44,336 bases of DNA from Akkermansiaceae bacterium. Lineage in GTDB: Bacteria; Verrucomicrobiota; Verrucomicrobiia; Verrucomicrobiales; Akkermansiaceae. Where the stretch lies: assembly GCA_029866215.1 (NCBI GenBank), contig JARWZU010000061.1, positions 1 through 44,336 on the forward strand, read 5' to 3'. A program made the position numbers and the translations under genes. Below, in pieces: positions 13,748 to 29,010 of this stretch; the stretch's first letter is position 1; every line of letters begins with the position of its first letter. The notes below the pieces were generated by a model. It saw only the letters and a program-made list of their open reading frames with translations. It searched no databases and had not been told where the DNA came from.

Positions 13748-15046
13748 ATGAACCCATTCCTCAAAGCCGACGAACTCACGCGCCGCCAGTTCGTAACCAA
13801 TGCCGCACGCGCTTACCTCGGCGTGCATCTGTTCCCGATGTTAGGCGGCACGCTCGCCAGCGCCGCACCAGAAGCCGCACTCAAAGGCGGCACTGCCAAG
13901 AGCGTCATCTATCTTTACATGTCCGGCGGCATGAGCCACATCGACACCTTCGATCCCAAGCCGAAGAAAAAAGAAGTGATGGGTAAAACCGAAGCCATCC
14001 CGACCAAGGCGGACGGCGTGATGATCGGCCACTATCTGAAAAAAACCGCCGAGGTGATGGACAAGGTTTGCGTCATCAACTCGATGAACTCGACCCAAGG
14101 TGCCCACGAACAAGGCTCCTACGCCATGCACACCAGTTATAATATGCGCGGCACCATCAAGCATCCATCGCTCGGCTCGTGGGTCTTGAAATTGGGCGGG
14201 CGCATCCACCCTGAACTTCCCGGATTCGTCGCCGTCAACAGCGCCCCCGAACTCGCCGGTGGTGGCTTTCTCGGTGCCAAGTATTCCGCCGCTTTGATCG
14301 GCAGTCCCGACCAAGGGCTCAATGATTCCCGCCGCGCCGCCGAAGTGACCCAAGAGGATTTCGAGCGCCGCTTGTCACTGGCCGACAAGATGAACCGCCA
14401 GTTCCACGACCGCTATGCCAACGCCGACGTGAAGGCCTACGAGGAACTCTATCGTGAAGCCATTACGCTGATGAATTCGAAAGACCTCAAAGCTTTCGAT
14501 CTCAAACAAGAATCCGAGGCCACCCGCAAACTCTACGGCTCAGGCCGCTTCGCTCAGGGCTGCCTGTTAGCCCGCAGACTCGTGCAGAACGGAGTGCGCT
14601 TCATCGAAGTGCAGCTTGGCGGTTGGGACACCCATTACGATAATTTCACCGGAGTCGCCGGCCGTTGTCAGGAGTTCGACCAAGCCTACGCTGCACTCAT
14701 CACCGACCTCGAAAAATGCGGCAAGCTTCAGGACACGCTGGTCGTCGTCGCTACCGAGTTTGGCCGCACCCCCGAGATCAAAGCCGAGCACAAGGAAGGC
14801 CGCGACCACCACCCCGAAGCTTTCTCCTGTCTGCTCGCCGGCGGCGGCATCAAGGGCGGCGTCAAGCACGGCACCACCGATGCATCAGGCGGCAGGGTCA
14901 AGGACGGCATGGTTAGCGTTCAAGATTTCAACGCCACCATTGCCCACGCCCTCTCGCTCCCCTACGACACCGTCGTCATGTCACCCACGAGGCGCCCCTT
15001 CAAAATCGCCGACAAGGGCGTGCCAGTGACCACACTCTTCGGTTAG
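13748..15046 (+). CDS. DUF1501 family secreted protein
   Basis: This 432-residue protein forms a pair with the preceding DUF1549/DUF1553 gene, with a 5-bp gap implying one transcript. The N-terminus has a twin-arginine-like stretch (TRRQFVTNAARAYLGV), as is common in this family, so Tat export is likely. The body carries DUF1501 hallmarks: VIYLYMSGGMSHIDTFDPK near residue 57, QLGGWDTHYDNF, and LVVVATEFGRTPEI followed by GRDHHPEAFSC. The family belongs to the alkaline phosphatase/sulfatase superfamily by fold, and the conserved Asp/His residues fit metal binding. Its substrate is unknown. Joint action with its DUF1553 partner in the periplasm is inferred from the genomic pairing. Confidence 0.9.
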   Translation: MNPFLKADELTRRQFVTNAARAYLGVHLFPMLGGTLASAAPEAALKGGTAKSVIYLYMSGGMSHIDTFDPKPKKKEVMGKTEAIPTKADGVMIGHYLKKTAEVMDKVCVINSMNSTQGAHEQGSYAMHTSYNMRGTIKHPSLGSWVLKLGGRIHPELPGFVAVNSAPELAGGGFLGAKYSAALIGSPDQGLNDSRRAAEVTQEDFERRLSLADKMNRQFHDRYANADVKAYEELYREAITLMNSKDLKAFDLKQESEATRKLYGSGRFAQGCLLARRLVQNGVRFIEVQLGGWDTHYDNFTGVAGRCQEFDQAYAALITDLEKCGKLQDTLVVVATEFGRTPEIKAEHKEGRDHHPEAFSCLLAGGGIKGGVKHGTTDASGGRVKDGMVSVQDFNATIAHALSLPYDTVVMSPTRRPFKIADKGVPVTTLFG

Positions 15047-15251
15047 TTGGCGAACTGACACTCGCGAACGATGCCGCGGAGGCAGAATGAGCAAAAGTAT
15101 TGCTCCGACACTGACAAAGAATACACCCGCATCATTTTTATTTTCCTAGCGAACGTTAGATGTGCACTCACCGGCGCGATTGGATGGGTGTTGAAATGAA
15201 ATTGAAAAAATGATGGCCGGCTGGTGCGCCACGACTTGTTGGGTGTTCTTC
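15047..15251. other. Intergenic region with a weak attC-like fold-back (15151-15244)
   Basis: On the minus strand, just downstream of the toxin stop, the sequence reads ACCCAACAAGTCG, an R''-type box (RYYYAAC) followed by typical attC spacer bases. An imperfect complement lies about 60 bp further on. The opposite box is only GTTCGCT, which does not match GTTRRRY, and no matching cassette start is visible to the right of the antitoxin. I regard it as a possible decayed recombination site, not a firm one. Confidence 0.3.
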
Positions 15252-15521
15252 TTATCTAAAAAGGTCACTGTGGCTGCCCGTCCTCTCAAGGAACAGGTAA
15301 TCTTCATCAACACGATAGATTAGAATCCAGTCCGGTTCGATATGACAGTCTCTTGACCCTGACCAATTCCCACTCAGTGCGTGGTCACGATGACGCTCTT
15401 CCAACGCTTCGCTATTTACTATGGCACTTACGACCTCCTTGATCCTACTCAAATCTTTGCCTCGCTTCTTAATCCTCTTGAAATCTTTTTTGAATTGGCT
15501 GGTCTGAAAAATCGCTTTCAT
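15252..15521 (-). CDS. yafQ: Type II toxin, YafQ/RelE-family mRNA interferase
   Basis: This 89-residue protein closely follows the YafQ pattern. It has a basic N-terminal helix (FKKDFKRIKKRGKD), RDHALSGNW around residues 46-53, CHIEPDW (59-65) with YR after it, and GSHSDLF (82-88). These hold the His, Asp and Trp residues used by YafQ for ribosome-dependent mRNA cleavage. It overlaps the upstream antitoxin gene by 4 bp (ATGA), the usual arrangement for coupled toxin-antitoxin translation. A small operon expressed from the antitoxin promoter and repressed by the complex is inferred from the family. Confidence 0.9.
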   Translation of the reverse strand: MKAIFQTSQFKKDFKRIKKRGKDLSRIKEVVSAIVNSEALEERHRDHALSGNWSGSRDCHIEPDWILIYRVDEDYLFLERTGSHSDLFR

Positions 15522-15781
15522 GCACTCCAGCCATCGAAAAGTTTCTCGGTAGAGTCGAATCGTTCCAGATTACGGCCGTTCCGGGATTCCTCGAGTGCCT
15601 TGATCGTCACGTCATTCGGAATAGCCACATCGAACGGCAGTCCGTTCCGCAAGGTGATCTGTGTATAAAACATACGAATTGCCTCGGTCGGACTCAGACC
15701 CAAGCGTTGGAGTATCCCCTCGGCCTGCTCCTTAATCTCAGGCTGAATTCGACTGTGGACTGCTGCGGTCTTCATGCTCAT
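15518..15781 (-). CDS. dinJ: Antitoxin, RelB/DinJ family
   Basis: This is the partner of the YafQ-like toxin. The product (MSMKTAAVHSRIQPEIKEQA...) has the ribbon-helix-helix DNA-binding N-terminus of RelB/DinJ, with LGLSPTEAIRMFYTQITLRNGLPFDV. A C-terminal tail should wrap the toxin. The start is chosen at ATG 15781 (87 residues); ATG 15775 is equally good. Longer frames upstream code for a stretch unlike the family. There is no clear ribosome binding site. The sequence just upstream contains GCATGC, which could be part of an operator, but no larger palindrome is evident. Confidence 0.85.
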   Translation of the reverse strand: MSMKTAAVHSRIQPEIKEQAEGILQRLGLSPTEAIRMFYTQITLRNGLPFDVAIPNDVTIKALEESRNGRNLERFDSTEKLFDGWSA

Positions 15782-16020
15782 AATGTGTTGCATGCGCACC
15801 ACGCCGTCAAGAGGCTTTTTTACAAACCATCTAAGACGAGGCACGGAGCGCAGCGGTGTTGCCTCTACCGCTTGGCTGAACTAAGCCGCTGCACAGCAGA
15901 CTGTTAGTAGATGGTGCGGGGTTGTTTTGAAAAATTGATGGCCGTGGGGCTGAATAGCAGAAGCGGCCATTCAAATACCAACCCATCGCCGGATGTGCGC
16001 ATGGCGACGTCATGCGGTTA
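15782..16020. other. Non-coding stretch upstream of the antitoxin
   Basis: I see no gene. A short inverted repeat GTTAG/CTAAC (16017-16031) marks the border with the IS91 remnant. Several AAC/GTT boxes resemble integron core sites, but none pairs convincingly with another. Confidence 0.3.
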
Positions 16021-16310
16021 GAGCCCCTAACTGGCGGTGAGTTCGTCAAGCGTTACCTGCGCCACGTCCTGCCACGCGGCCTGCGCGCGGTGCGCTACCA
16101 CGGCTTCTGCCACCCCGCAGCCAAGGCCAAACGGGAGCGCATCGCCTTCCCCACCGGACGCCCCTTGCCAATTGGCGCGGCAACCGATGGCTATCCAAAA
16201 GCCACCCCACGTCGTCACCTGTTCCTGTTGCGGAGAGCCGATGAAAAAACTCTTCTTTCTCCTCCCCGCGTGGCGTTCGGGCCGCGGGCCACCCATTCGG
16301 AAACGCTCAT
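16021..16310 (+). pseudogene. IS91-family (Y2) transposase C-terminal remnant, frameshifted
   Basis: One frame gives GGEFVKRYLRHVLPRGLRAV and then RYHGFCHPAAK, which matches the HVLP-G-xx-R-Y/H-G-F region near the end of IS91-type Y2 transposases. After a frame change the next frame gives CSCCGEPMKKLFFLLP, matching the C-terminal zinc-binding Cys pair of that family. There is no N-terminal half and no catalytic tyrosine pair, so this is a dead fragment of a rolling-circle element. It abuts a 380-bp repeat also present near 22 kb. The family call rests on recognition of these motifs only. Confidence 0.55.
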
Positions 16311-16655
16311 GCGCCTGACACTCCATTCACCTTCGTTTCAGCACACTGGCTTTTTGCGCAACCTCGCAACCGGCAATGGCAGATCAGGTCTCGCAGGTGG
16401 AATTTTCACCGTTCCAGCCTAATACCAACTCCACTAGGCCGCCAACTCACGCCACCCTTGGAATCTAACTACGTCCTTTGAGCGTTATCCACTGTGCGCG
16501 ACCCACCCGCGCCTCCCGTGGCGGGCATTGATGCTGGAACCTAAGCAAACAGAAAACGCATCAAGCGAGCCCCCCTCGGCTCCGGACTTGTTCAACCAAA
16601 CGGCACAGTCGAAGTCTTCGCTACCGCTAAGCCTTCGCAGCACCCTTTATTGTTC
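16273..16655. repeat. Long repeat, copy A (with copies B and C near 22-23 kb)
   Basis: This is about 383 bp, nearly the same as 21976-22358 (copy B). Its right-hand 150 bp also match 22954-23106 (copy C). Each copy ends on the right at an AGCACCCTTTAT box a few bases from the stop codon of a minus-strand gene. The copies end at different points on the left. The right end of each contains a 69-bp attC-like site. The open frames that cross it are not conserved between copies, so it is probably non-coding. Confidence 0.8.
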
Positions 16656-17278: not shown

Positions 17279-20200
17279 ATGACGTCACCCACGAAAAGCA
17301 AATTCCTTTCAATAAGGAAACTGACCGCGCTACTCCTGCTCCTGCTCGCTACCTTTCGCGCTGAGGCGGCGAATGGGCTGACGGGCTGCTATTTCGACAA
17401 TGACGATTTCACCTCGCAGGTGACCTTGCGTACGGACGCGACGGTGAATTTTAATTGGGGCGCTTCGATTCCGGAGGGCACGGCGTTGACGAGCGGGGAG
17501 TATTTCTCGGTGCGGTGGACGGGGCAGATTGATCCTCAGTTCTCCGAAACCTACACGTTCTACGTCGCGGCGGATAATGGGTCGCGATTGTGGATTGATG
17601 ACAAGCTCATTGCAGCGCGAACGGTACACGTCACCGGCGGGCTGAAAATGCGAGGTACGGTAAAGTTGACCGCCGGGCGCAGGGTGAACATCCGGCTGGA
17701 GATGATGGAGAGGGGGGGCGACGCGGTGGCCAAGCTGGAGTGGTCTAGCCCGAGCCTGGCGCGGCAGGTGATTCCGCAGTCGCGGCTGTTCACGGACGAG
17801 GGGAAAGCGGAGACGGGCGCTCTGATGAAGGAGGTTTGGGATGGCCAGGGGGTCACGGACATCACCATCAGCAAATTGAAAACTCACCCGAATTATCCGG
17901 ACCGCCCGCTGGCCCGCGATTTCATCCCGAGCTTCGAGTCGTTTCACCGGGACTGGAAGGACAGTTTTGGCACTCGCGTCACGGGTTTCATCGTGCCGCA
18001 GGTGAGCGGTAGCTACAGCTTCGCGGTGGCAGGCGATGAAATCGTGGAACTGTTTCTCAGCACGGATTCAGCGGAGGGGAACAGGGCGCTCATTGCGTCG
18101 GCGCCATCGGCCACCGGGTTCCGCGAGTGGACGAAGTTTCCCTCGCAAGTGTCCACGACGCGGACGCTCACGGCGGGGCAGAAATATTTCGTCGAGCTGC
18201 TGCATGTGGAGTCCACGGGCAGCGACCATTTTTCCGTCGCGTGGAAGACGCCGGGCAGCGAGACGTGGGAGGTGATTGGTGGCGACTACCTCGTCCAGGC
18301 GGGCATTGACCGGCCGCAGCCGCTGGAGGAGTCGGCATTGCTGGATAGTTTAGCCACGGGGCATCCGCGGGTGCTGGCAACGCAGGAGCGGTTCGACTGG
18401 CTGAAGGCGCAAATCCTCGCGAACCCATCGGGCAATCAGGCGAACTGGTACGACAAACTGCTCGACCAAGCGGATGACATGCTCGTCCAGGAGGTGAACA
18501 CGTTCAATGCGACAGACAATCTCACCGTGAGCCGCTCGGTCTTGGACCGCATGTATACGCTGGCGCTGGTGTGGAAGATTTCCGGCGACAGCAAATACGC
18601 CGAGCGGGCGTGGCTGGAACTCGATGCGGCGCGGAATTTCCCAGACTGGCAGCCGTCGAAATTTCTCTGCGTGGCGGAAATGACGCACGCCTTCGCCATC
18701 GGCCTGGACTGGTTTTACCACTACTGGTCGGCTCCGCGGCTCTCGGCGATTCGCAGTGCCATCGTCAGCAAGGGGTTCAATCCAGCCATCGCCGACTACG
18801 ATGGGGATGAAGATTGGACGCTGGACAGCGCGAACACTTCGAACCCCGTGAACAACGGCGGCATGGTGCTCGGTGCGCTGGCGATGGGCACTTCTGAAGA
18901 GGCGAAGGTGGAAGAGATACTCCAGCGGGCGCTCGCTTCGGTGCGTCCAGTGCTCGGCCATTACACGGCGGACAACGGCGCGATTTACGAAGGCGCGAAC
19001 TACTGGGGCTACTCGGCGCGGTATCTCGTGCGGATGCTCTCCGGTCTGGAAGGCGTGCTGGGCTCAGACTTCGGCTCCCTCAGCAGCAAGGATGGGCTCT
19101 CGGAAAGCGGCGTCGTGCCCATGCACATGACCGGGCCCACGAATAAAATGTTTAACTTCGGCGACGCACTACCCTATGAGAAGGCCGGTGCCGAGCTATT
19201 CTGGTTCGCACGGCGCTACAACCGGCCGGTGTGCGCATGGTTTGAGCGTAAATTTTGCAACGAGAGCGACTTCGGACCCGAGGCACTGGATTTGTTGTGG
19301 TATGACCCTCGCGGCAGCAATCCCAGCTTGGAGAGCGTGTCGCCCGATGTCTATTTTCGCGGCGCGACCAAGCCTACGTCGCCCGCTTACGATACGCTGG
19401 AGGCGGGAGTTTTTCGCGAGAAGTGGAACGACTCCCGCGCAACCTATCTGGCCTTCAAAGGCGGGAATCTCGGCGAACATACTCACACCGACCTCGATGC
19501 TGGTTCGTTCGTACTTTATGCCAACGGCAAGAACTGGGCTCTCGACATGGGCACGGAAGATTACTCGCTGCGGGGCGTGCTGAATCCGACCTCCTCCTCC
19601 GGCACCGACCGCTGGGACTACTACCGCAAGCGCGCCGAGGGCCACAACACGCTCGTCATCAATCCCGGCAGCGGCCCGGACCAGCAGCTCGGCAGCGATT
19701 GTCCCATTCAGTTCTGGCGCAGTTCGCCCGATGGCGACGGCTCGGCCAGCGTCATGGACCTGACACCAGCCTATAAAAACGCGACCAACGTCCGGCGCGG
19801 CTTCCGGCTGCTCAATGGCCGCCACGACGTCATCGTGCAGGACGAGATTTCACTCAGTACGTCTTCCACCGTGTGGTGGTTCATGCACTTCAACTCGGGC
19901 ACTACCACATGTGACATTGCGGCCGACCGCACCTCCGCCATGCTCACCCAAGGCGACGAGCGGCTTTGGTGCAAAATCCTGAGCGGCGACGGCGTCTTCA
20001 CCGTCCAGGATTCAACTCCCTTTGCCAGTTCGCCGAAGCCCGCCGGGCAAAACGAGAACAATGAGTTCCAAAAACTCAGCATCCAGCTCACGGATGTCAC
20101 CAGCACGCGACTGACCGTTTATCTGAAACCTCTCGCCAACGGCGACCCCATCCCCGAGCCCGCCGCGTTGCCCACCGTCAGCTCGCTCGACGAATGGACC

Positions 20201-21463
20201 ATCTCCGGCATCAACGACCCCCCGACCATCAGCGACGTCGCCACCCAGACCACCACCAAGAACATCGCCACCGCCGCGCTCCCCTTCACCATCGGCGACG
20301 ACCTCACCGCCCCCGGCTCGCTCACGCTCACGAAATCCTCGTCTAACCCCACGCTCGTGCCGCCTGCGAACATCGTCTTCGGCGGCAGCGGAGCGAACCG
20401 CACCGTCACCGTCACGCCCGCAGCGAACCAGAGCGGTGCCGCGTTCATCACACTCACCGTGAGCGACGGCACGCACACGGCCAGAGACGAGTTCTGGCTC
20501 TCCGTCATGGATGGAGGCACGCCCCTCACGCTATCCGTGCCTCTCGCCGCCAGTGCGGACGATGCTGAGGAATCCGTCTTCGGCACCGTGGACCTCACGA
20601 GCACCCACCTCGAACTCCCGAACGCACGCGGGCCCATCGCGACCACCGGGGGGAGCGACCCACTCGTAGGCCTGCGTTTTGCCGGACTGCCGATTCCGCA
20701 AGGAGCCACCATCACCCATGCCGCCATTCAGTTCACCGCCGCAGGAACGCAGAGTGAAGCGACCACGCTCGACATCACCGTGGAAGCCACCGACCAGGCC
20801 GCCGCATTCAGTGCCACTGCGAGAAATCTCAGCAATCGTCCCATTACCACGACCCGCCTCGTTTGGCAGCCCCCCGCGTGGAGCGTTATGGGCGAGGCCG
20901 CCGCCAGCCAGCGCACTCCGAACCTCGCAGGCATCCTGCAGGAAATCGTTTCCCGTCCCGGCTGGGCCAGCGGCAATGCCATCGCGCTCTTCATCAAAGG
21001 CACCGGCCGCCGCACTGCTGACGCGTTCGACAAATCCGGCGGCACTCCGCCGAGGCTCAGCGTCACCTATGTCATCGAGCCCACCGCATCCTTCGCGCAA
21101 TGGCTGACCACCTATCCCTCGCTCACCGGCACCAACGCCCTGAGTACCGCCGACCCCGATGGCGACGCCTTCAACAACCTGCTCGAATACGCCCTCGCCA
21201 CCCACCCCACGCAAGCGAACACCGCGCCCTACACCACCGCGCTTGAAGGCAGCACGCTCGCCTTCACCTACGCCCGCCCGAGTCTCGCGCCAGACCTCAC
21301 CTACGCCGTCGAGTGGAGCCGCACCCTCGCCGCCGGGACTTGGAGCAGCGCCGGAGTCACTCAGCAAATCACCAGTGACAACGGCACGATCCGCACCGTG
21401 CGAGCCGCCGTCCCCGCAGGGACTGAGGCGCTTTTCCTAAGGCTCAAAGTCACCGCGCCATGA
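17279..21463 (+). CDS. Secreted PA14 / heparinase II/III-like polysaccharide lyase
   Basis: The product has 1394 residues with a signal peptide (LTALLLLLLATFRAEA, cleavage near 30). PA14 domain 1 is at about 31-165 (GLTGCYFDNDDF to RQVIPQSRLF) and a PA14-like domain 2 at 185-335. An alpha/alpha-toroid region (about 355-690; HPRVLATQERFDWL, then YEGANYWGYSARYLVRML) precedes a heparinase II/III-type beta-sheet region (about 700-920) with GEHTHTDLDAGSFVLYANG and RAEGHNTLVINP. The paired histidines and Asp fit the metal-binding or catalytic motif of these lyases. A cadherin-like domain, a CBM-like beta-sandwich and a C-terminal module (LTYAVEWSRTL to FLRLKVTAP) follow. It probably cleaves uronic-acid polysaccharide outside the cell; the substrate cannot be read from sequence. 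The last 79 bp lie within a 311-bp segment duplicated at 25640. Confidence 0.85.
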   Translation: MTSPTKSKFLSIRKLTALLLLLLATFRAEAANGLTGCYFDNDDFTSQVTLRTDATVNFNWGASIPEGTALTSGEYFSVRWTGQIDPQFSETYTFYVAADNGSRLWIDDKLIAARTVHVTGGLKMRGTVKLTAGRRVNIRLEMMERGGDAVAKLEWSSPSLARQVIPQSRLFTDEGKAETGALMKEVWDGQGVTDITISKLKTHPNYPDRPLARDFIPSFESFHRDWKDSFGTRVTGFIVPQVSGSYSFAVAGDEIVELFLSTDSAEGNRALIASAPSATGFREWTKFPSQVSTTRTLTAGQKYFVELLHVESTGSDHFSVAWKTPGSETWEVIGGDYLVQAGIDRPQPLEESALLDSLATGHPRVLATQERFDWLKAQILANPSGNQANWYDKLLDQADDMLVQEVNTFNATDNLTVSRSVLDRMYTLALVWKISGDSKYAERAWLELDAARNFPDWQPSKFLCVAEMTHAFAIGLDWFYHYWSAPRLSAIRSAIVSKGFNPAIADYDGDEDWTLDSANTSNPVNNGGMVLGALAMGTSEEAKVEEILQRALASVRPVLGHYTADNGAIYEGANYWGYSARYLVRMLSGLEGVLGSDFGSLSSKDGLSESGVVPMHMTGPTNKMFNFGDALPYEKAGAELFWFARRYNRPVCAWFERKFCNESDFGPEALDLLWYDPRGSNPSLESVSPDVYFRGATKPTSPAYDTLEAGVFREKWNDSRATYLAFKGGNLGEHTHTDLDAGSFVLYANGKNWALDMGTEDYSLRGVLNPTSSSGTDRWDYYRKRAEGHNTLVINPGSGPDQQLGSDCPIQFWRSSPDGDGSASVMDLTPAYKNATNVRRGFRLLNGRHDVIVQDEISLSTSSTVWWFMHFNSGTTTCDIAADRTSAMLTQGDERLWCKILSGDGVFTVQDSTPFASSPKPAGQNENNEFQKLSIQLTDVTSTRLTVYLKPLANGDPIPEPAALPTVSSLDEWTISGINDPPTISDVATQTTTKNIATAALPFTIGDDLTAPGSLTLTKSSSNPTLVPPANIVFGGSGANRTVTVTPAANQSGAAFITLTVSDGTHTARDEFWLSVMDGGTPLTLSVPLAASADDAEESVFGTVDLTSTHLELPNARGPIATTGGSDPLVGLRFAGLPIPQGATITHAAIQFTAAGTQSEATTLDITVEATDQAAAFSATARNLSNRPITTTRLVWQPPAWSVMGEAAASQRTPNLAGILQEIVSRPGWASGNAIALFIKGTGRRTADAFDKSGGTPPRLSVTYVIEPTASFAQWLTTYPSLTGTNALSTADPDGDAFNNLLEYALATHPTQANTAPYTTALEGSTLAFTYARPSLAPDLTYAVEWSRTLAAGTWSSAGVTQQITSDNGTIRTVRAAVPAGTEALFLRLKVTAP

Positions 21464-21695
21464 AACGATTGCTCGGAATTTGCGGTTGGGATGAAGGCCT
21501 TTGATCAAGCTGATTAGAGAGCCGGAGGGCCTCCTGGAACGGCGGCGACCCGAACTGGGGCCAGCAGCATTCACGCCGTCGGCTAGTCGCGGCCGTTTCC
21601 CTGCCCGAGTTTGAAATCTGCATCAATCTCAACCAAGGAAGCGCCGAATACACGTATTGGAAACAAGCCCGCAAGGACGGGCTCATGTGAGGCGA
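21385..21695. repeat. 311-bp segmental duplication, copy 1 (lyase 3' end and downstream)
   Basis: This segment matches 25640-25950 at a constant offset of 4255 bp with no insertion or deletion that I can see, only scattered substitutions. It includes the last 26 codons of the lyase and downstream sequence. Downstream, one frame begins MKRLLGICGWDEG, meets stops, and ends in a protein-like NQGSAEYTYWKQARKDGL before TGA. The two copies bracket the integron region. Confidence 0.85.
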
Positions 21696-21861: not shown

Positions 21862-21960
21862 TGGATCGCTTACTCCGTTCCACTCGTTCTGCTACTCGCT
21901 GTTTCTTGGGGAACTGACTTGCGGGCCACGCTAAAGCCGAAGTCTTGGTTGACCGGAAAT
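21862..21960 (-). pseudogene. 3'-end remnant of a formylglycine-generating-enzyme-like gene
   Basis: This segment matches 26228-26320, the 3' end of the double FGE-domain gene. The minus strand reads QDFGFSVARKSVPQ where the intact gene reads ADFGFRVARSSVPY. The order of the two fragments here is the reverse of the order of the intact genes at 26-29 kb, so the block arose by rearrangement, not simple duplication. It is then joined to repeat copy B. Confidence 0.7.
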
Positions 21961-21975
21961 TCCCCTAACCGCGCT

Positions 21976-22358
21976 GCGTTCGGGCTGCGGGCCACCCATT
22001 CGGAAACGCTCATGCGCCTGACCCTCCATCCAACTTCGTTTCAGCACACTGGCTTTTTGCGCAACCTCGCAACCGGCAATGGCGGATCACGTCTCCAAGG
22101 TGAAATTTTCACCGTTCCAGCCTCATCCGAACTCCACCAAACCACCGACTCACGCCACCCTTGCGTTCAACCTACCTCCTTCGAGCGTCAACCACTATGC
22201 CCGCCTCACCCGCGACGCCCTTGGCGGGCATCGATCTTGGAACCTAAGCAAACAGAAAACGCATCAAGCGAGCCCCCCTCGGCTCCGGACTTGTTCAACC
22301 AAACGGCGCAGTCGAAGTCTTCGCTACCGCTCAGCCTTCGCAGCACCCTTTATGGTTC
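21976..22358. repeat. Long repeat, copy B
   Basis: About 383 bp, a near match to copy A (16273-16655). The right-hand 150 bp also match copy C. The attC-like site lies at the right end. The frames crossing it are not preserved between copies. It is the leftmost recognisable part of the integron region. Confidence 0.8.
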
Positions 22359-22361
22359 TGC
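22293..22361 (-). other. attC-like site after the toxin-antitoxin cassette (repeat copy B)
   Basis: On the minus strand the site starts 5 bp after the toxin stop, with GCAGAAC in the R'' position, and ends 69 bp later at GTTGAAC (GTTRRRY). The inner arms fold back with one unpaired T. The interior is the same as in the 23042-23110 site. The R'' box is not complementary to the box at the presumed cassette start (23048), so either that end or this one has been rearranged. Confidence 0.55.
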
Positions 22362-22366
22362 TGTCT

Positions 22367-22624
22367 TCATTCTGAGATGAGCTTGTCGTATTCAGAGTGA
22401 GGCCCGATCCACAACCATATCATCGCTCCCTCATGGCGCACTCCCAGAGCACGATACTGGATACCTGCACGAACAGACCAAAACCTGCCAACCTTCTTGA
22501 AGTGTAGCGAGGGGTGAAACGGATCAGCCTTCAAAAGCTGGAAATTCTCGTCAGCGACACTTTGGACGCGCAAAGGAAGTTGATCGTAGGCGTTCCAAAA
22601 CTTCTTGGTAGCGTGATGGATCAA
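22367..22624 (-). CDS. RelE/ParE-superfamily toxin of a type II toxin-antitoxin pair
   Basis: This 85-residue protein has the RelE/ParE layout: an N-terminal helix (KKFWNAYDQLPLRVQSVADE), the LLKADPFHPSLHFKKV hinge, and the GRFWSVRAGIQYRALGV beta-hairpin. It ends with MIWLWIGPHSEYDKLI, where the HSEYDKLI tail is typical of this group. The antitoxin gene ends 5 bp upstream. A toxin that cleaves mRNA on the ribosome is the usual role for RelE-like members; ParE-like gyrase inhibition cannot be excluded. An attC-like site follows directly. Confidence 0.8.
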   Translation of the reverse strand: MIHHATKKFWNAYDQLPLRVQSVADENFQLLKADPFHPSLHFKKVGRFWSVRAGIQYRALGVRHEGAMIWLWIGPHSEYDKLISE

Positions 22625-22953: not shown

Positions 22954-23106
22954 CTCACCCGCGACGCCCGTGGCGAGCATTGATGTTGGAACCTAAGCAA
23001 ACAGAAAACGCATCAAGCGAGCCTACCTCGGCTCCGGACTTGTTCAACCAAACGGCGCAGTCGAAGTCTTCGCTACCGCTCAGCCTTCGCAGCACCCTTT
23101 ATGGTT
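22954..23106. repeat. Short repeat, copy C (150-bp core of copies A and B)
   Basis: It shares about 150 bp with the right-hand ends of copies A and B and then diverges into the toxin-antitoxin leader. It contains the attC-like site 23042-23110 and a GC-rich hairpin-prone stretch next to it. Confidence 0.8.
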
Positions 23107-23110
23107 AGTC
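23042..23110 (-). other. attC site of the DUF4145 cassette
   Basis: On the minus strand the site begins GGACTAAC at the stop codon of the DUF4145 gene and ends at GTTGAAC 69 bp later, matching RYYYAAC...GTTRRRY except for one base of the first box. The arms CTTCGCAGC and CAGTCGAAG pair with a single unpaired T. Crucially, GGACTAAC is the exact complement of GTTAGTCC, the first bases of this cassette (23810-23803, minus strand). That is what integration of a circular cassette predicts. Confidence 0.8.
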
Positions 23111-23788
23111 CTTCTTTCTTCTGGCAATTCTAGCTTTAAACTCCTCATAACGATCTGCCAAATCGTAAATGTATTCTGTGATTGCGTATCCAAATGTCTG
23201 CAAATCTTCTGCGTCTTCACGTGTAATCGAAATGTCGTCTGGATGCGCGGCAATGTTGCGAAATGCCTGGAGTTCTTGGCTCCAATCATATAACCGCTGG
23301 TCAATGACCTTTAGCTCGCGAAGACGCTTAATGCCCTCTCCCAGCATGATCTTCTTCGTAGGGACTGGCTCTCCCGGTATTGCATCATGAGCGTTCAGTA
23401 CATCGCGGCACATGGCCTCGAGAGCGCGACCAAGCATGACGCAAGCAGCCGTATTGGCATTCGCCTGAAGTGAGCGCTCTGCCTCCGCGAGGGACTCAGT
23501 GACCTGACGGGGAATTCGGTAGCTATTAAACCGCTTGGGAGGCTTGGGAAAAACTCTCACAATGTCAGTCCACCGATCCTCATCTGCATCGAAATCTTGG
23601 AAGCGAATCTGATCAGACTCGCCAGCAAGAAGGCATCCACACGTAGGACACTTTCCAATAAAAAGCCGATGCCCAAACGGTTCTCCGCAATCGGGATCGG
23701 AACCTTGATGCGTTGCGGAGCCGAGTTGCTTGGCGGCAACTTTTGCTTTGCACCAACAACAATCGATAATAAACGCGGAATCTGTCAT
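23105..23788 (-). CDS. DUF4145 domain protein with zinc-ribbon-like N-terminus (integron cassette 2)
   Basis: The start is set at ATG 23788 (MTDSAFIIDCCWC...), 15 bp after the attC end; the longer frame upstream runs into the attC site. The product is 227 residues. Cys10/Cys13 and Cys47/Cys50 (CCWC, CPTCGC) form a likely zinc ribbon, and a DUF4145 helical domain follows (about 100-195; LQANANTAACVMLGRALEAM, then LQAFRNIAAHPDD). DUF4145 occurs alone or joined to restriction-modification and other nucleic-acid-acting proteins; its biochemical role is not established. The gene fills its cassette almost end to end, and its stop codon overlaps the attC box. Confidence 0.8.
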   Translation of the reverse strand: MTDSAFIIDCCWCKAKVAAKQLGSATHQGSDPDCGEPFGHRLFIGKCPTCGCLLAGESDQIRFQDFDADEDRWTDIVRVFPKPPKRFNSYRIPRQVTESLAEAERSLQANANTAACVMLGRALEAMCRDVLNAHDAIPGEPVPTKKIMLGEGIKRLRELKVIDQRLYDWSQELQAFRNIAAHPDDISITREDAEDLQTFGYAITEYIYDLADRYEEFKARIARRKKD

Positions 23789-23802
23789 AGTTTTGATTTC
23801 TG

Positions 23803-23929
23803 GACTAACGATGAGCACATCCACCACTAGGAGCGGGGGTGGACGTGGATCACGGGGTTAGTGTTGCAATTACGGGAAATCATGGAAACAGAACGGCTCC
23901 TAGTGGTTGGATGATGCGGCTTGTTAGGC
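23803..23929 (-). other. attC site of the HNH/nucleotidyltransferase cassette
   Basis: This 127-bp site reads, on the minus strand, GCCTAACAAG at one end and CGTTAGTCC at the other. Arms CCACTAGGAGC (23824-23834) and GCTCCTAGTGG (23896-23906) are perfectly complementary. The pairing extends through CATCCA/TGGATG with one unpaired T at 23907, and a 61-base loop lies between. The R'' box and adjoining bases (GCCTAAC, preceded by TTG) match the start of its own cassette (GTTAGGCAA at 25292) by complement. All of these are hallmarks of a folded integron attC. Confidence 0.85.
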
Positions 23930-24240: not shown

Positions 24241-24595
24241 AATCCCAGAAATTATCAAGCCAGAGCGCGCCGGTCAGTTCACTAGAATTGTAAAGTCCCA
24301 CTTTTTTTGAGAGGCAGAGTTCTTTCGCCTCAGGGGTGTATCCATTCCAGTTCCCCCCAACTGAAATGAAATTAACATTGGGAAACTCATGAAACACCCG
24401 TTGGGCAGCCGCCTCCCCGAATGCATACTCATCAAGGCAAATAGCGGTAACAGGAGGCCCATTAGCGCGTTCAATCTCAAGGATGATATCGTCATGTCTA
24501 GAGACATTTACCACGTTTGCGTGGCTGGAAATAGCGCCTTCTAGCCAAGAAATTCGACTAAACGAAACACCCCATTCATTGCTTCCATTATTCAT
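24188..24595 (-). CDS. Unrecognised protein, cassette 1 second gene
   Basis: With the start at ATG 24595 the product is 135 residues (MNNGSNEWGVSFSRISW...). It overlaps the HNH gene by 8 bp and the nucleotidyltransferase gene by about 50 bp, so the three are almost certainly translated together. Visible features are a soluble alpha/beta-like pattern, VTAICLDEYAFGEAAAQRVF, and VNFISVGGNWNGYTPEAKEL with KVGLYNSSELTGALW. No signal peptide or membrane segment is present. I do not recognise the family and see no clear catalytic motif; the acidic DEY and the NWNGY stretch are worth testing. Confidence 0.65.
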   Translation of the reverse strand: MNNGSNEWGVSFSRISWLEGAISSHANVVNVSRHDDIILEIERANGPPVTAICLDEYAFGEAAAQRVFHEFPNVNFISVGGNWNGYTPEAKELCLSKKVGLYNSSELTGALWLDNFWDYAAKDKDGDPVYQYRSA

Positions 24596-25262
24596 CTTCT
24601 GAAAAAGCTTGTTCAAATTCTGTTGGGAATAGTGGGTAACTGTCAAGCCGGTGCACCACATGTCTTTCGTATGCTTCTGCGTGCATCCGGAATCTCTCAG
24701 CTACCTCAAGATTGCGGGAGGGAATTAATGAGGCATTAGCATCGAGCAAGTTGAGAATCCTGCGGTTGTTGGGAACAATGCGATCAAGTCGTCGTAATTC
24801 CCAGATTGAAAAGAGATTAGAGCTAGGATCAGTAACAGCAGTATCACTACGTGGACCGAATGCTCTGAAAACTGCACGATTAGTAGCGAGTAGACGAGAT
24901 ATCTCTCGCCGAAGCTCTTCGAATGAAACGTATCGAATTGTGCAACCAGCACTACGGATAGTCTCTTCCTGCTTGCGCTTCCAATCATGGATTAGCTCAG
25001 CGGGAAAAGTGCCCTCGGGTGCCTTGTCAATGTGCTTATGGTGTGTAGGACACAGAAGGATCAGATTATCGTAGGTGTCAGGACCGCCCTCAGGCGTGCT
25101 ACGCTTAGCGGTGGGTTTGCGCCCGATCACATGCGCCATCTCGCCTACGATGTAGTTGCCTGACTCGACCAATGCCGTAAGATCTTCCGTGCAATCCGGC
25201 TTTGAACACATGCCACCCGCCCTACCCCAGAGTAACTTTATATCGATTTCGGAGATGGCCAT
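24588..25262 (-). CDS. HNH endonuclease, cassette 1 first gene
   Basis: This 224-residue protein has an N-terminal HNH domain: GGMCSKPDC with zinc-type Cys19 and Cys24, GEMAHVIGR with His44, and DTYDNLILLCPTHHKHID with Asn66, Cys71, His74 and His75. The nuclease site therefore looks complete. The C-terminal two-thirds (about 95-224) is helical and does not resemble a family I know. The start ATG lies only about 24 bp from the GTTAGGC box of the putative attI site, the position expected for the first gene of an integron array. Expression from an upstream Pc-type promoter is inferred. A role in DNA cleavage, perhaps defence, is inference. Confidence 0.8.
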   Translation of the reverse strand: MAISEIDIKLLWGRAGGMCSKPDCTEDLTALVESGNYIVGEMAHVIGRKPTAKRSTPEGGPDTYDNLILLCPTHHKHIDKAPEGTFPAELIHDWKRKQEETIRSAGCTIRYVSFEELRREISRLLATNRAVFRAFGPRSDTAVTDPSSNLFSIWELRRLDRIVPNNRRILNLLDANASLIPSRNLEVAERFRMHAEAYERHVVHRLDSYPLFPTEFEQAFSEDE

Positions 25263-25285: not shown

Positions 25286-25500
25286 CCTAACTTGTTATTC
25301 GTCTACAGAACCGGGGGAAAATGTCGGGCGGCTTAACAGACTCCGGAAGTGAAGGTTTACGCGCGGGATTTCGCAAGGTTTTTCATGTGGGAATTCATGA
25401 ATCTCTGAGCATCAATCGACGGAAATGGAGGTTTGCGCGCTTATCGGCGTGTTATTCTTTGAAAGTGCCCTTGTCACAAACCTCTACTTCCGGGGAATAA
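25286..25500 (-). other. Putative attI region with 21-bp repeats
   Basis: On the minus strand the sequence just before the first cassette reads AATAACAAGTTAGGC (core 25286-25292), which resembles the end of the class 1 attI site (AACAAAG then TT). Unlike an attC, no complementary partner box lies within 150 bp. The region holds two direct copies of a 21-bp unit, 25344-25364 and 25420-25440 (18 of 21 identical). An inverted, shorter third copy lies at 25475-25493. Repeats of this kind could bind the recombinase. It lies between cassettes and recombinase fragment, as attI should. Confidence 0.6.
25451..25479 (-). promoter_or_regulatory. Candidate cassette promoter (Pc-like)
   Basis: On the minus strand TTGTGA (25479-25474) and AATAAC (25456-25451) are separated by 17 bp, each matching 4 of 6 consensus bases. 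It points into the cassette array from the recombinase side, where integrons carry their common promoter. This is pattern only. Confidence 0.3.
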
Positions 25501-25537
25501 TATGCGTATTTAACATGTTATTCTGCAGACTGGAACT

Positions 25538-25643
25538 GTGAAACTGATAGAACGGATTCGGCAGGTGATTCGTTTCACGCAATACCGCTTGAGGACGGAG
25601 GAAAGCTACGTGGGGTGGTATCGGCACTTTGTATAGTTTCACG
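25538..25643 (+). pseudogene. intI: IntI-type tyrosine recombinase, N-terminal fragment (inactivated)
   Basis: From GTG 25538 the frame encodes VKLIERIRQVIRFTQYRLRT and then EESYVGWYRHFV. This matches the N-terminal SAM-like domain of integron integrases, where the family has R-L/S-LRTE-x-x-Y-V-x-W-x-R-x-F. A TAG (25634-25636) follows where the family usually has Leu, and the next two codons (Phe-His) still fit the family FH. The gene is thus hit by a nonsense change and then cut off at about 25643, where the 311-bp duplication begins. It points away from the cassettes, as intI normally does. XerC/D proteins share this domain, but the attI and attC context favours IntI. Confidence 0.75.
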
Positions 25644-25950
25644 ATCCGCACCGTACGAGCTGCCGTCCCTGCAGGCACCGAGGCACTTTTCCTAAGGCTC
25701 AAAGTCACTGCGCCATGAAACGATTGCTCGGAATATGCGGTTGGGATGAAGGCCGTTGAGAAAGCTGATTAGAGAGCCGGAGGGCCTCCTGGAACGACGG
25801 CGACCCGAACTGGGGCCCGCATCATCCACGCCGTCGGCACCGCGCGGCCGTTTCCCTGCCCGAGTTTGAAATCAGCATCAATCGCAACCAAGGAAGCGCC
25901 GAATACATGTATTGGAAACAAGCCCGGAAAGACGGGCTCGTGTGAGGCGA
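25640..25950. repeat. 311-bp segmental duplication, copy 2 (truncates intI)
   Basis: It matches 21385-21695 at constant offset. It carries the last codons of a lyase paralogue and the same downstream coding-like tail (NQGSAEYMYWKQARKDGL). The lyase piece has no start, so it is a gene remnant. Its left edge is the breakpoint in the recombinase gene. Confidence 0.85.
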
Positions 25951-25987
25951 CACACCCCCATCAGGCTTGCATGTTTTTGTAACAGTT

Positions 25988-26079
25988 AAGCCCAGGGTAG
26001 TCCCGCGTGGTGCGTGGCTACCCTGGGCTTTGGGTCACAATCCCGTCGGGATTGGCGGAGGAGTTGATTCAACTCCTCC
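25988..26079. repeat. Cluster of three perfect hairpins
   Basis: Three palindromes lie in tandem. AAGCCCAGGGTAG/CTACCCTGGGCTT (25988-26000 with 26018-26030) has 13-bp arms. CAATCCCG/CGGGATTG (26038-26045 with 26047-26054) has 8-bp arms. GGAGGAGTTG/CAACTCCTCC (26057-26066 with 26070-26079) has 10-bp arms. The outer pair resembles the hairpin after duplication copy 1. None is followed by a T-run. A mobile palindromic repeat is a reasonable guess. Confidence 0.7.
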
Positions 26080-26267
26080 TTGGAACGGACTTGAACGTTC
26101 GCCGGGATGTCTGGATGAACTCAAATGGCGCACCTCATTTTTCAGAAAAAAGCAATTCGGGACCTTCGCCCCTTTTCGTCTTGTTCTGATTGGATGCGCT
26201 CTCACCGTTGTTCACAACACTCCCGGCACTACGCTTACTCCGTTCCATTCGTTTTGGTACTCGCTAT
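26080..26267. other. Intergenic sequence downstream of the double FGE gene
   Basis: I see no gene here. The right-hand 40 bp are shared with the FGE-like remnant at 21862-21960, showing that the duplicated unit included the downstream flank. Confidence 0.4.
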
Positions 26268-28934
26268 TTAGTAAGGAACTGAGCTGCGGGCCACCCGGAA
26301 CCCGAAGTCTGCGTTGAGTGGGATGGTAGGCCAACCATGGTATACGCCATCTGAGAGGCCGGGGTATTGCTTTGCGACGCGACAGAAGGACTCATTTCGG
26401 ACACCACTACCGCCCCGGGCCATCCGCTTATAGTTCTCGTTGAATGCAAAGTATTCTGTCACCTTCACCTCATCCCAACACCATTGCATGACGTTACCCG
26501 CCATGTCGTTCAAGCCGTAACCGTTCGCCGCAAACGATCCTACTGGTGAGGTGTTTGGCAGCGGGGCCGTCCACCAAGCGCTGCTGGCGAATGCAACGAA
26601 GTTATCGCTCGCAAAGGGATCATAACTCGCCTGAGTCTGGCTGATTGTATCGCCCCATGGGTAGCGCTTGCCGCTCAAGCCGCCCCGCGCCGCCTTTTCC
26701 CACTCCGCCTCAGTCGGCAGGCGGTAGCCATTGGCGGTCCATTTCACCATTCCGCCGGTCAAAACAGCATTTCCCGTCTTGTAAACCGTCGTCTGCGCTT
26801 CGTCAGTGTAGTACACCGGCGTCAGCCCTTCCTGCTGGCTGCGGGCGTTGCAGAACTTCACGGCTTGGTACCACGAAGGCATCAGCACGGGGTGGTCGCT
26901 GGCATTGCCTAATCCCACAATCAGATCCGTGTAACCATTGCTGATCGCCCATGCCCGAACGGTGTCCCACTCCGCCATAGTCGTCAGATTCTTCGCCATG
27001 TAAAACGCACTGACATCCACCGTGCGGGTCGGATTAGCGGAATCACCATCAACCGCGTCGCCCATGATGAAACTGCCGGACGGGATGAGGGAGAAGCCGG
27101 TGGGAGCGGCGGGGGTATTGGCGACCTTCAAAAGAAAGGTGTCGCTCGTGCTCAGCGAACCATCACTCACCGTCACCGTGATCGTCGCCGTACCGCTCTG
27201 ACCCATGGCGGGGGTCACCGTGACCATGCGGCTTGCTCCACTGCCGCCGAAGACAATGCTGGCGTTCGGCACTAAGGATGCATTGCTGCTGCTAGCGCTG
27301 AGCGTGAGGAAAGACGCTTCCGTCTGAGCATCGCCAACCGTGAAGGCGAGTGCTCCCGTATTGCTATCTGCGTTGATGCTTTGTGCCGCGATGTCGGAGA
27401 TCGTCGGCGCGGTGTTGGCCTGCTCCGGGCCGGTGAAACTGCGGGCTACGCGGAAGCCGACGAGCCCTTTTTTGACCAATTTTTCTGGATCTTCGTCGTG
27501 GCGGTTCGCGACGCGGCAGCCGGCCGGGTAGGTGTACCAACTGCCGCCCCGGAACACTCGGACTGTGCCCGATGTAGCACCCCGTGGATCGGTAGCTCCA
27601 CTCACATAGGACGATTCTTCGTACCAATCCCAGCACCACTCAGACACATTCCCCGCCATGTCATACAGCCCATACTCATTTGCCGCAAAACTACCCACTG
27701 GTGAAGTGTAGGGGGCTAACTCTCCGGAGTAGACTTGGTGAAACATGCCATCAGGATGAGCATTGCTTACATCGTAACTGTAGAATGAAGATGCAAAGTA
27801 GTTCGCCTCGCTGTGGCTGATCGTATCCGTGCCCCATGGAAAGCGTTTCCCATCGACTCCACCGCGTGCCGCTTTTTCCCACTCCGCTTCAGTCGGCAAT
27901 CGATAGCCGTTCGCACTCCAGTCCGCCGTTGGTTCTGATGTCCCAGTCTTCATGGTCGCGCCATTCACGGTGTAAACCGGTGTCAGCCCGTCTTGCTGGC
28001 TGCGCGCATTGCACCATTTTACCATGTCAAACCAACTAATGGTGTGCACGGGGTTATCGCTATGATCCCCTTCTACAAAGTCGATGTTCTGACTCCCTTT
28101 GACAGCGCCCTCGCTCAGGTCCGTGTAGCCATTGGCCGCGCCATAAGTCCGCACCTCATCCCACAGGGCTTTGGTGACTTCGTATTTCCCCATGTAAAAC
28201 TCACTTACTGTGACTGTTACTGGCGGAGCATCAGCATCCGTATCTCCACTGGTGCGTCCCATGGTGAAGGCTCCGGCGGGGATCAATGCCATGTCCGTAG
28301 GTACTACGACGGCACTGCTGTTCAGCGTCTCCGTACCATCCGAGGGCTTCACCCAACCCGGTGCAGCAAGGCGGTTCGTCACCTCCCTTGTAGCAGCGGA
28401 GAACTCCACTGCACGCGATGAAGCAACGCCGCTCGTCACCGTCACCGTAGCAGCCGAGGAATTCACTGTACCCAATGCATTCGTCACCTTCACCCAGTAG
28501 TCCGTAGTAGCCGTGAGGGCCGGAGTGGTGAAGCTCGCGGAGTTGGTCCCCACTGGAGTCGTCGTTGTGCCCACGCTGCCTTGATACCATTGATAGGTAA
28601 ATGGCCCCGTGCCGCTGGCGGCCGCGTTCAGGGTGGTCGTTTGTCCGCTTGCAATGCTAACCGACGCTGGCTGCGCCGTGAAGCCGGGCGGCATCAGTAG
28701 CTCTAACTTCATCCGGTAAAATTTCTCCGGCGTGTCCGTAGGTACGAGGATTTCCCCATTCGCATCCAGCATCGCCGGAGTCACGGGCACGGGTTGCCAA
28801 CTTTGCAGGTTGCTGGATTCCTCCAGCAGCAAGCGGCTAACATTCTGCGCCGCCGATGGCAGCGCGAGTAGTGGAAGGCACATCAGGCCTCGTATCAGGG
28901 TGCGGGCGATGCCGCTTATTTTGTTTGTTTTCAT
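26268..28934 (-). CDS. Secreted protein with two formylglycine-generating-enzyme-like (SUMF1) domains
   Basis: The start is set at ATG 28934 (MKTNKISGIARTLIRGLMCL), giving 888 residues and a signal peptide (to about 30, PSAAQ). An N-terminal SSNLQSW module and an Ig-like domain (about 90-170) precede FGE-like domain 1 (about 213-505; FYMGKYEVTKALWDEV, YRLPTEAEWEKAARGG, GLYDMAGNVSEWCWDW, FRGGSWYTYPAGCRVANR). A cadherin-like linker (515-615) and FGE-like domain 2 (620-885) follow. True FGE oxidises a sulfatase cysteine to formylglycine using two active-site cysteines. Here only one of the pair is left in each domain (AGCRVA, ESFCRVA), so catalysis of that reaction is doubtful and a binding or other role is likely. 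The gene lies near the sulfatase gene on the same strand. Confidence 0.85.
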   Translation of the reverse strand: MKTNKISGIARTLIRGLMCLPLLALPSAAQNVSRLLLEESSNLQSWQPVPVTPAMLDANGEILVPTDTPEKFYRMKLELLMPPGFTAQPASVSIASGQTTTLNAAASGTGPFTYQWYQGSVGTTTTPVGTNSASFTTPALTATTDYWVKVTNALGTVNSSAATVTVTSGVASSRAVEFSAATREVTNRLAAPGWVKPSDGTETLNSSAVVVPTDMALIPAGAFTMGRTSGDTDADAPPVTVTVSEFYMGKYEVTKALWDEVRTYGAANGYTDLSEGAVKGSQNIDFVEGDHSDNPVHTISWFDMVKWCNARSQQDGLTPVYTVNGATMKTGTSEPTADWSANGYRLPTEAEWEKAARGGVDGKRFPWGTDTISHSEANYFASSFYSYDVSNAHPDGMFHQVYSGELAPYTSPVGSFAANEYGLYDMAGNVSEWCWDWYEESSYVSGATDPRGATSGTVRVFRGGSWYTYPAGCRVANRHDEDPEKLVKKGLVGFRVARSFTGPEQANTAPTISDIAAQSINADSNTGALAFTVGDAQTEASFLTLSASSSNASLVPNASIVFGGSGASRMVTVTPAMGQSGTATITVTVSDGSLSTSDTFLLKVANTPAAPTGFSLIPSGSFIMGDAVDGDSANPTRTVDVSAFYMAKNLTTMAEWDTVRAWAISNGYTDLIVGLGNASDHPVLMPSWYQAVKFCNARSQQEGLTPVYYTDEAQTTVYKTGNAVLTGGMVKWTANGYRLPTEAEWEKAARGGLSGKRYPWGDTISQTQASYDPFASDNFVAFASSAWWTAPLPNTSPVGSFAANGYGLNDMAGNVMQWCWDEVKVTEYFAFNENYKRMARGGSGVRNESFCRVAKQYPGLSDGVYHGWPTIPLNADFGFRVARSSVPY

Positions 28935-29010
28935 TTTTTCGGGGGACACAGCTTGCAGCTGTATTTTTTAGTAAAGAGTGACGGTGGAGTGTAAATGGCT
29001 ACCGGGAAAA

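Follow-up and report, generated by a model that had tools for sequence, protein, structure and literature searches.

What becomes of an integron platform whose own integrase gene has been destroyed: does its cassette array stay as it was at that moment, or can cassettes still be exchanged? The stretch of DNA analysed here, the window, raises this question. It runs from the start of contig C48 to base 44,336, in a 3.03 Mb genome (G000; 88 contigs, 97% complete) which belongs to a genus within Akkermansiaceae. A preliminary description of the window had proposed that intI was inactivated twice, by an in-frame TAG and then by a truncation, and that the sequence switches from intI to the 3' end of a lyase gene. 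The features on which our answer rests are collected in Table 1, where G062 designates a sister-species MAG ('Akkermansiaceae bacterium isolate MAG16'; record JAPJNB010000011.1, 14,717 bases, carrying the locus of contig C240), C3 another contig of the window's own genome, R1 the covariance model used for attC sites and R2 the sequence model used for attI sites.

Table 1. Features of the window, in order of position
Feature	Position	Strand	Evidence and remarks
Left flank, DUF1501 gene	13748..15046	+	syntenic in G062
Last attC, left boundary of exchanged zone	15148..15244	-	R1, 37.3 bits, E=7.3e-5 in own genome (non-training); G062 synteny ends here
YafQ-type toxin (15252-15521) and RelB-type antitoxin (15518-15844)	15252..15844	-	adjoin last attC
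Complete heparinase-type lyase gene (PA14, Hepar_II_III_C)	17279..21463	+	family search
Left copy of lyase-end stretch	21385..21695	+	3' end of complete lyase gene
DUF4145 ORF	23105..23827	-	family search; just past attC at 23803
attC of attI-proximal cassette	23803..23929	-	R1, 75.1 bits, E=1.7e-13 in own genome (training member)
Cassette ORF, 143 aa	23827..24258	-	weak nucleotidyltransferase match, below cut-off
Cassette ORF, 157 aa	24188..24661	-	no Pfam family at E<=0.01
First ORF after attI, 224 aa, HNH endonuclease-effector-like N-terminal part	24588..25262	-	Pfam HNH_2, 20.9 bits (cut-off 21)
attI region	25287..25397	+	R2, E=3.0e-24 (training member); homology with C3 and G062 starts here
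intI 5' remnant	25538..25639	+	34 codons including in-frame TAG (codon 33); family match, alignment
In-frame TAG	25634..25636	+	also in C3 and G062 copies
Junction	25640..25644	+	5-nt overlap CACGA common to intI (as read in C3) and lyase 3' end; alignment
Right copy, lyase 3' end and downstream DNA	25640..25950	+	same junction in G062
Right-flank ORF, 204 aa	29011..29625	-	98% identical and syntenic in G062

The reading of the intI remnant is borne out by its frame and by its family matches. From 25538 onward the forward strand gives VKLIERIRQVIRFTQYRLRTEESYVGWYRHFV, a stop and then FH, the two codons after the TAG still matching the family as had been claimed, before it passes into lyase sequence. 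The 32-residue peptide in front of the stop has integron-integrase models as its two best family matches (NF011946, E=3.7e-5; TIGR02249, E=0.0043, at the N-terminus), and the stub together with its upstream DNA matches the intact platforms of two congeners (G005, E=7e-16; G025, E=9e-14) as well as a second copy on contig C3 (90% over 357 nt, E=1.4e-135). These matches lie far beyond chance. The homology is to IntI rather than to any tyrosine recombinase, as shown by the rank of the IntI models, the adjoining attI and the homology to intact platforms, and coding capacity has been lost through the TAG and the truncation; the remnant is an integron integrase pseudogene. The residue replaced by the TAG had been given as Leu; it is Arg in the integrases of C86 (a further contig of the same genome), G005 and G025 and His in the Vibrio IntI, and Leu in none of these four.

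The region upstream of the stub (25287-25537) is the platform region with its attI, and the cassette genes lie to its left on the minus strand, an integron-like arrangement. The crossover core of the attI is found at about 25287-25291 and reads CTAAC, that is, GTTAG on the minus strand. The homology with C3 and G062 starts at this core and different DNA lies beyond it, as expected of cassettes joined at the attI, and two attC sites are present, the first of which served as an R1 training site. An intact intI beside the attI, which a complete integron would possess, is replaced by the 34 codons with their internal TAG, followed by lyase sequence. R1 was built on 10 training sites picked by a noisy symmetry scan and recovers all 10 within its 42 matches at E<=1; 37 of the 42 (10 of them training sites) reach E<=1e-4, and the counts are a lower bound, 150 of 1351 first-look candidates having been scored. 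R2, built on seven training sites, gave nine matches at E<=0.01 under stricter filters in the 73 genomes of the genus used for the attI comparison. Eight of these nine, the seven training sites and a new one in G062, have E<=5.1e-17, and the ninth (G085) has E=0.006. The eight strong sites stand beside an intact intI in C86, G005, G025 and G081, and lack one in the window, C3, C38 (also of the window's genome) and G062.

Two observations concern the contents of such platforms. The first cassette ORF after the attI matches the PADLOC profile PDC-M68A (E=2.3e-24 over residues 3-127); its HNH part resembles candidate anti-phage families of the PDC-M68A and SAVED-HNH types, and the ORF, with 224 residues, is shorter than most of the profiles. 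On platforms L023 and L024, repeated stretches of the form GGAGATTTACGCGC...GCGT are seen by eye, and in a self-match of G005, between the attI and the start of intI; these are possibly operator or integrase-binding sites.

The order of the two lesions can be read from two further copies of the platform. The copy at C3:1412-1768, found by a search of the own genome and 90% identical to that of the window, carries the TAG at the same codon, and its intI match continues for about 14 codons past the TAG (FHELRHPGKMGAAE) before a short repeat is reached. It therefore extends some 12 codons further into intI than the window stub, and its intI is cut at another point. The third copy, in G062 (C240:12323 onward), shares both the TAG and the junction of stub and lyase 3' end, at the same syntenic locus. 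In a tree of the platforms, computed without G081, the window, C3 and G062 copies split from the intact ones with an ultrafast bootstrap of 100. Since C3 shares the TAG and retains a longer intI, the nonsense change preceded the truncation and arose in a gene of at least about 47 codons; since G062 shares both the TAG and the junction at the same place, both lesions are older than the species split, and the truncation seen in the window falls after the TAG and before the separation of the two sister species. The suggestion that the nonsense change happened in a gene that continued onward is thus upheld by the C3 copy, and the alternative offered with it, that both lesions arose in a single rearrangement, is not supported. 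A pattern spanning the TAG recovered a single record in genome_contigs, the G062 contig (the window's own genome is possibly absent from that set), and none in viral_contigs.

The 3' half of the gene was also searched for in the own genome. The family search at E<=10 returned 11 matches (two IntI, two XerC/D-like proteins, two other long frames, two stubs and one 3' scrap being among them), in none of which the missing half was recognised. The scrap at C24:961-1026 (L018; 22 positions, E=0.04) was considered for this role and rejected, as it appears by eye to belong to an IntI type other than that of C86; scraps covering the same profile positions as these 22 codons of an integrase 3' end occur in G062 on C137 and C197. 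A near full-length intI of G025 (C144, L056) with one in-frame TAG was likewise set aside, the TAG standing at a different place and so not being the same lesion.

The truncation had been ascribed to a duplication, and one part of this explanation holds: the lyase-end repeat is real, the stretches at 21385-21695 and 25640-25950 being 92% identical over 311 nt. A duplication is not required, because G062 has the junction and neither a full-length lyase homologue (query, the C-terminal 820 of 1394 aa) nor a second copy of the lyase 3' coding end was found there. The lyase protein query finds in G062 matches of domain length only, the best with 61% identity over 103 aa, and the lyase-end DNA finds only matches of 44-60 nt to the non-coding part of the repeat. 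A deletion that fused intI to a downstream lyase would explain the junction as well as a duplication. The three lyase-end copies differ pairwise by 8.0, 8.4 and 8.0%; this equal divergence gives no choice between duplication and deletion, and an attempt to date the lyase-end duplication by it was abandoned, since these values place it neither before nor after the split.

Several repeats surround this part of the window. The complete lyase gene lies between direct repeats of 399 nt that are 89% identical (16257-16655 and 21960-22358), the first of which overlaps an ORF with a Y2-transposase match. An intergenic element of about 150-170 nt recurs at 16500-16655, 22205-22374 and 22954-23123, outside the window's matches to the attC model, and parts of it are found elsewhere in the own genome (C59, C1) and in G062 (C128, C201). 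A 3-kb stretch with an FGE-sulfatase-domain gene (25951-28970) separates segments that are 54 nt apart in G062, and a piece like the 3' end of this gene is present at 21867-21952.

The comparison with G062 bears directly on the fate of the array. On the left, window 11748-15172 matches G062 C240 7692-11113, and the match, 93.4% identical over 3402 nt, reaches the last attC; on the right, window 25289-25950 matches C240 12325-12986 with 91% identity, with more matches further right and about 92% identity over 312 nt of the right flank. The homology ends on the right at the attI core and on the left at that of the last attC (window 15148-15244, G062 11090-11218). Between these shared flanks lie 10.1 kb in the window versus 1.2 kb in G062, and the nucleotide comparison of the two zones gives two attC-type matches only, of 64 and 66 nt. 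The translated comparison adds short matches, 12-49 aa long and 28-67% identical with E down to 6e-6, which lie partly within attC and partly elsewhere; those outside attC are taken as chance. The cassette zone of G062 holds a RelE/Xre-type pair, that of the window the HNH-effector-like ORF, others and the YafQ/RelB-type pair, and the array zone of C3 (1-1411), which the contig end interrupts, has only attC-type matches in common with either of them. Part of the window zone is not cassette-like, since it contains the lyase block and a transposase-like ORF; a part of the interspecies difference is therefore not the work of an integrase, and this DNA presumably arrived by other means than cassette exchange. 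The cassettes between the attI and the last attC differ between two platforms which have both lost their cis integrase, as would be expected of attC clusters mobilised in trans. All three copies carry the TAG, which makes exchange after the loss of the cis integrase the simplest account, and suggests that a doubly dead platform may still have exchanged its cassettes after that loss. The earlier view that the array is frozen unless an integrase acts in trans is not supported in its first half, the doubly dead platform of G062 having the same flanks and different cassettes.

Which enzyme could have done this? As the preliminary description had advised, we searched for a second integrase, and the own genome encodes two IntI proteins above the family cut-off of 265 bits, at C86:11959-12897 (317 aa, 396 bits) and C84:2151-3083 (464 aa, 331 bits). 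The frame of the C86 IntI is apparently intact, residues 7-315 aligning with the Vibrio IntI structure 2A3V. Beside it lies an attI of the same family as that of the window (13050-13158) and an array in which seven attC sites reach E<=1e-4, five of these being R1 training sites. The two attI sites differ clearly, their local match being 77% over 53 nt. Among the attC sites, that at C3 134-224 resembles an attC of the C86 array (87% over 91 nt), as does the last attC of the window (79% over 71 nt). IntI proteins above the cut-off are present in 34 of the 61 genomes of the genus covered by the family search; in G062 none reaches it, and the nearest candidate there is split over two frames at a contig end.

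The history which we propose for this locus, and which we consider probable, is that of a decayed, vertically inherited platform whose integrase died in two steps and whose cassettes were exchanged afterwards, likeliest by an integrase acting in trans. The first event was the appearance of a nonsense codon in the intI of a chromosomal integron. Everything past codon 34 was then lost by fusion to the lyase 3' end at the 5-nt overlap, and the dead platform would have been passed on to two sister species with its attI in place. The cassettes between the attI and the last attC would have been exchanged after the death of the integrase. The agent of this exchange would most likely be the C86 IntI, with its apparently intact frame, its related attI and its own array, the longer C84 IntI being the second candidate. 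In this scheme an integrase in trans, rather than the homologous import of whole arrays, would have made the exchange, and the C86 IntI would recognise the attI of the window. The attC types common to the C86 array and the dead platforms count in favour of an exchange in trans. The lack of an IntI above the cut-off in G062 and the clear difference between the window and C86 attI sites count against it, as do the conservation of the window attI, which is not significantly higher than around it, and the fact that the homologous import of a whole array would produce the same boundaries.

That import is the main rival of our proposal, and we regard it as possible, if rather unlikely. The dead platforms would be inert, and their arrays would have come by ordinary homologous recombination through the shared platform and flanks, possibly from a donor with an intact integrase. 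The platform, about 90% identical between copies, and the flanks supply the homology, donor arrays that differ from the attI onward would give a boundary of the same appearance, and the lack of an IntI above the cut-off in G062 agrees with this history. It needs, however, one array swap for the window-G062 pair and another for C3, whose zone is different again. The flank beside the left attC, moreover, has no divergent tract (90-99% identity in 250-nt bins over the last 1400 nt before the attC, 85-98% further out), although an import from a close relative would still be compatible with this pattern. An array frozen since the death of intI, in which cassette differences came about by deletion and unrelated insertions only, is improbable. 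Both lesions are real, the integrase cannot come from the window's own intI, and arrays without intI in Xanthomonas citri pv. citri are reported constant (PMC12444791); but the first cassette joined at the attI core is a different one in each of the three copies (window, G062, C3), and plain deletion gives no such outcome.

Two further readings concern the stub itself. It might have been kept for a function of its own, as a short peptide of 32 codons or for a promoter and attI within, and indeed none of the three copies has another stop in the frame before the TAG. The substitutions and the fate of the attI make this very improbable. Most of the differing codons are nonsynonymous: the three pairs among the window, C3 and G062 show synonymous/nonsynonymous differences of 2/6, 2/7 and 2/5, and the same 34 codons show 13/5, 11/3 and 5/6 in the pairs of three intact genes. 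The nonsynonymous excess of the stubs fits decay, with pairs that are non-independent, a stretch that is short and one intact pair that does no better, G005-G025 being likewise rich in nonsynonymous changes. Between the window and G062, 66 of 71 positions are identical in the attI, 159 of 180 in the middle region and 94 of 102 in the stub; conservation in the attI does not significantly exceed that of the dead platform around it (66/71 vs 159/180, Fisher p=0.36), and hence there is no sign of selection keeping the attI. C38, furthermore, keeps an attI and has no intI detected by the family search. That the TAG and the junction are assembly or sequencing errors, for which the fragmentation of the window genome into 88 contigs might speak, has a negligible probability: both are seen again in the MAG (JAPJNB010000011.1), a separate deposition that is about 91% identical here, and C3 repeats the TAG.

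The proposed history, death of intI followed by exchange in trans, is of a known kind. In class 2 integrons an inactive intI2 with an internal stop at position 179 is described, with array variation rarely reported (PMC8876359), and as in the window a nonsense-inactivated integrase adjoins attI and cassettes; the lesion there is a premature stop, whereas the window has also lost the 3' part of intI and its cassettes differ between sister species. In Xanthomonas, according to one report, an ancestral platform at a fixed locus has an intI inactivated in many lineages, CALINs are described, and these are stated to be mobilizable in trans by a functional IntI (PMC12444791). The decayed intI at an ancestral fixed-locus platform is common to that account and the window; there, inactivation is tied to array stasis in pv. 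citri, whereas here a common inactivation was followed by differing arrays, and an apparently intact integrase exists alongside several dead attI platforms. CALINs and SALINs, that is, attC clusters or single attC sites without integrase, resemble the window in having no working intI near the attC; the window differs from them in retaining attI and the intI 5' end, and has about 8.6 kb between its two attC sites. A 2008 survey gave nearly one third of intI genes as pseudogenes, many read as intragenomic duplicates, and more than one intI in over one fifth of integron-containing lineages (PMC2426708). In contrast to such intI pseudogenes in general, the order of the lesions and a later cassette difference can be read here from three related copies. 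The loss of intI may plausibly be due to the fitness cost that active integrases impose (PMC3510236). Among the top matches in the integron literature for Verrucomicrobia or Akkermansia, no title dealt with Akkermansiaceae integrons, and no description of the present locus was met in the top literature matches; what it adds is an unusually clear record of continued exchange.

A single genome rarely tells dead platforms with a broken intI from those that still exchange cassettes. Here the nonsense codon and the truncation, both shared, serve as time stamps: cassettes which differ between carriers of both were exchanged after the death of the cis integrase. The comparison could be repeated in any set of related genomes with a common intI lesion and would show how often trans activity matters.

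The own genome of the window contains three attI platforms without a working intI, those of the window, C3 and C38. That of C38 (L060; 424-531 on the minus strand) shares 87% identity with the C86 platform over 187 nt and has two attC sites on its other side; where a start of intI would be expected, about 250 nt after the core, unrelated sequence is found, and short repeats then extend to the end of the contig some 280 nt further on. Apart from these platforms, contigs C6 and C39 (5,918 and 13,207 bases) have 7 and 8 attC sites at E<=1e-4 and no integrase match, each cluster with a site less than 100 bases from a contig end. Could this be a lineage with one integrase and many docking sites, in which one intact IntI works in trans on the attI platforms of the window, C3 and C38? 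We put this forward tentatively, as something less probable than not. If it were true, the cell would pay for one integrase and keep several separate, expressible entry points for cassettes; and the number of active docking sites would be higher than a count of complete integrons suggests, should one integrase indeed serve several dead attI sites.
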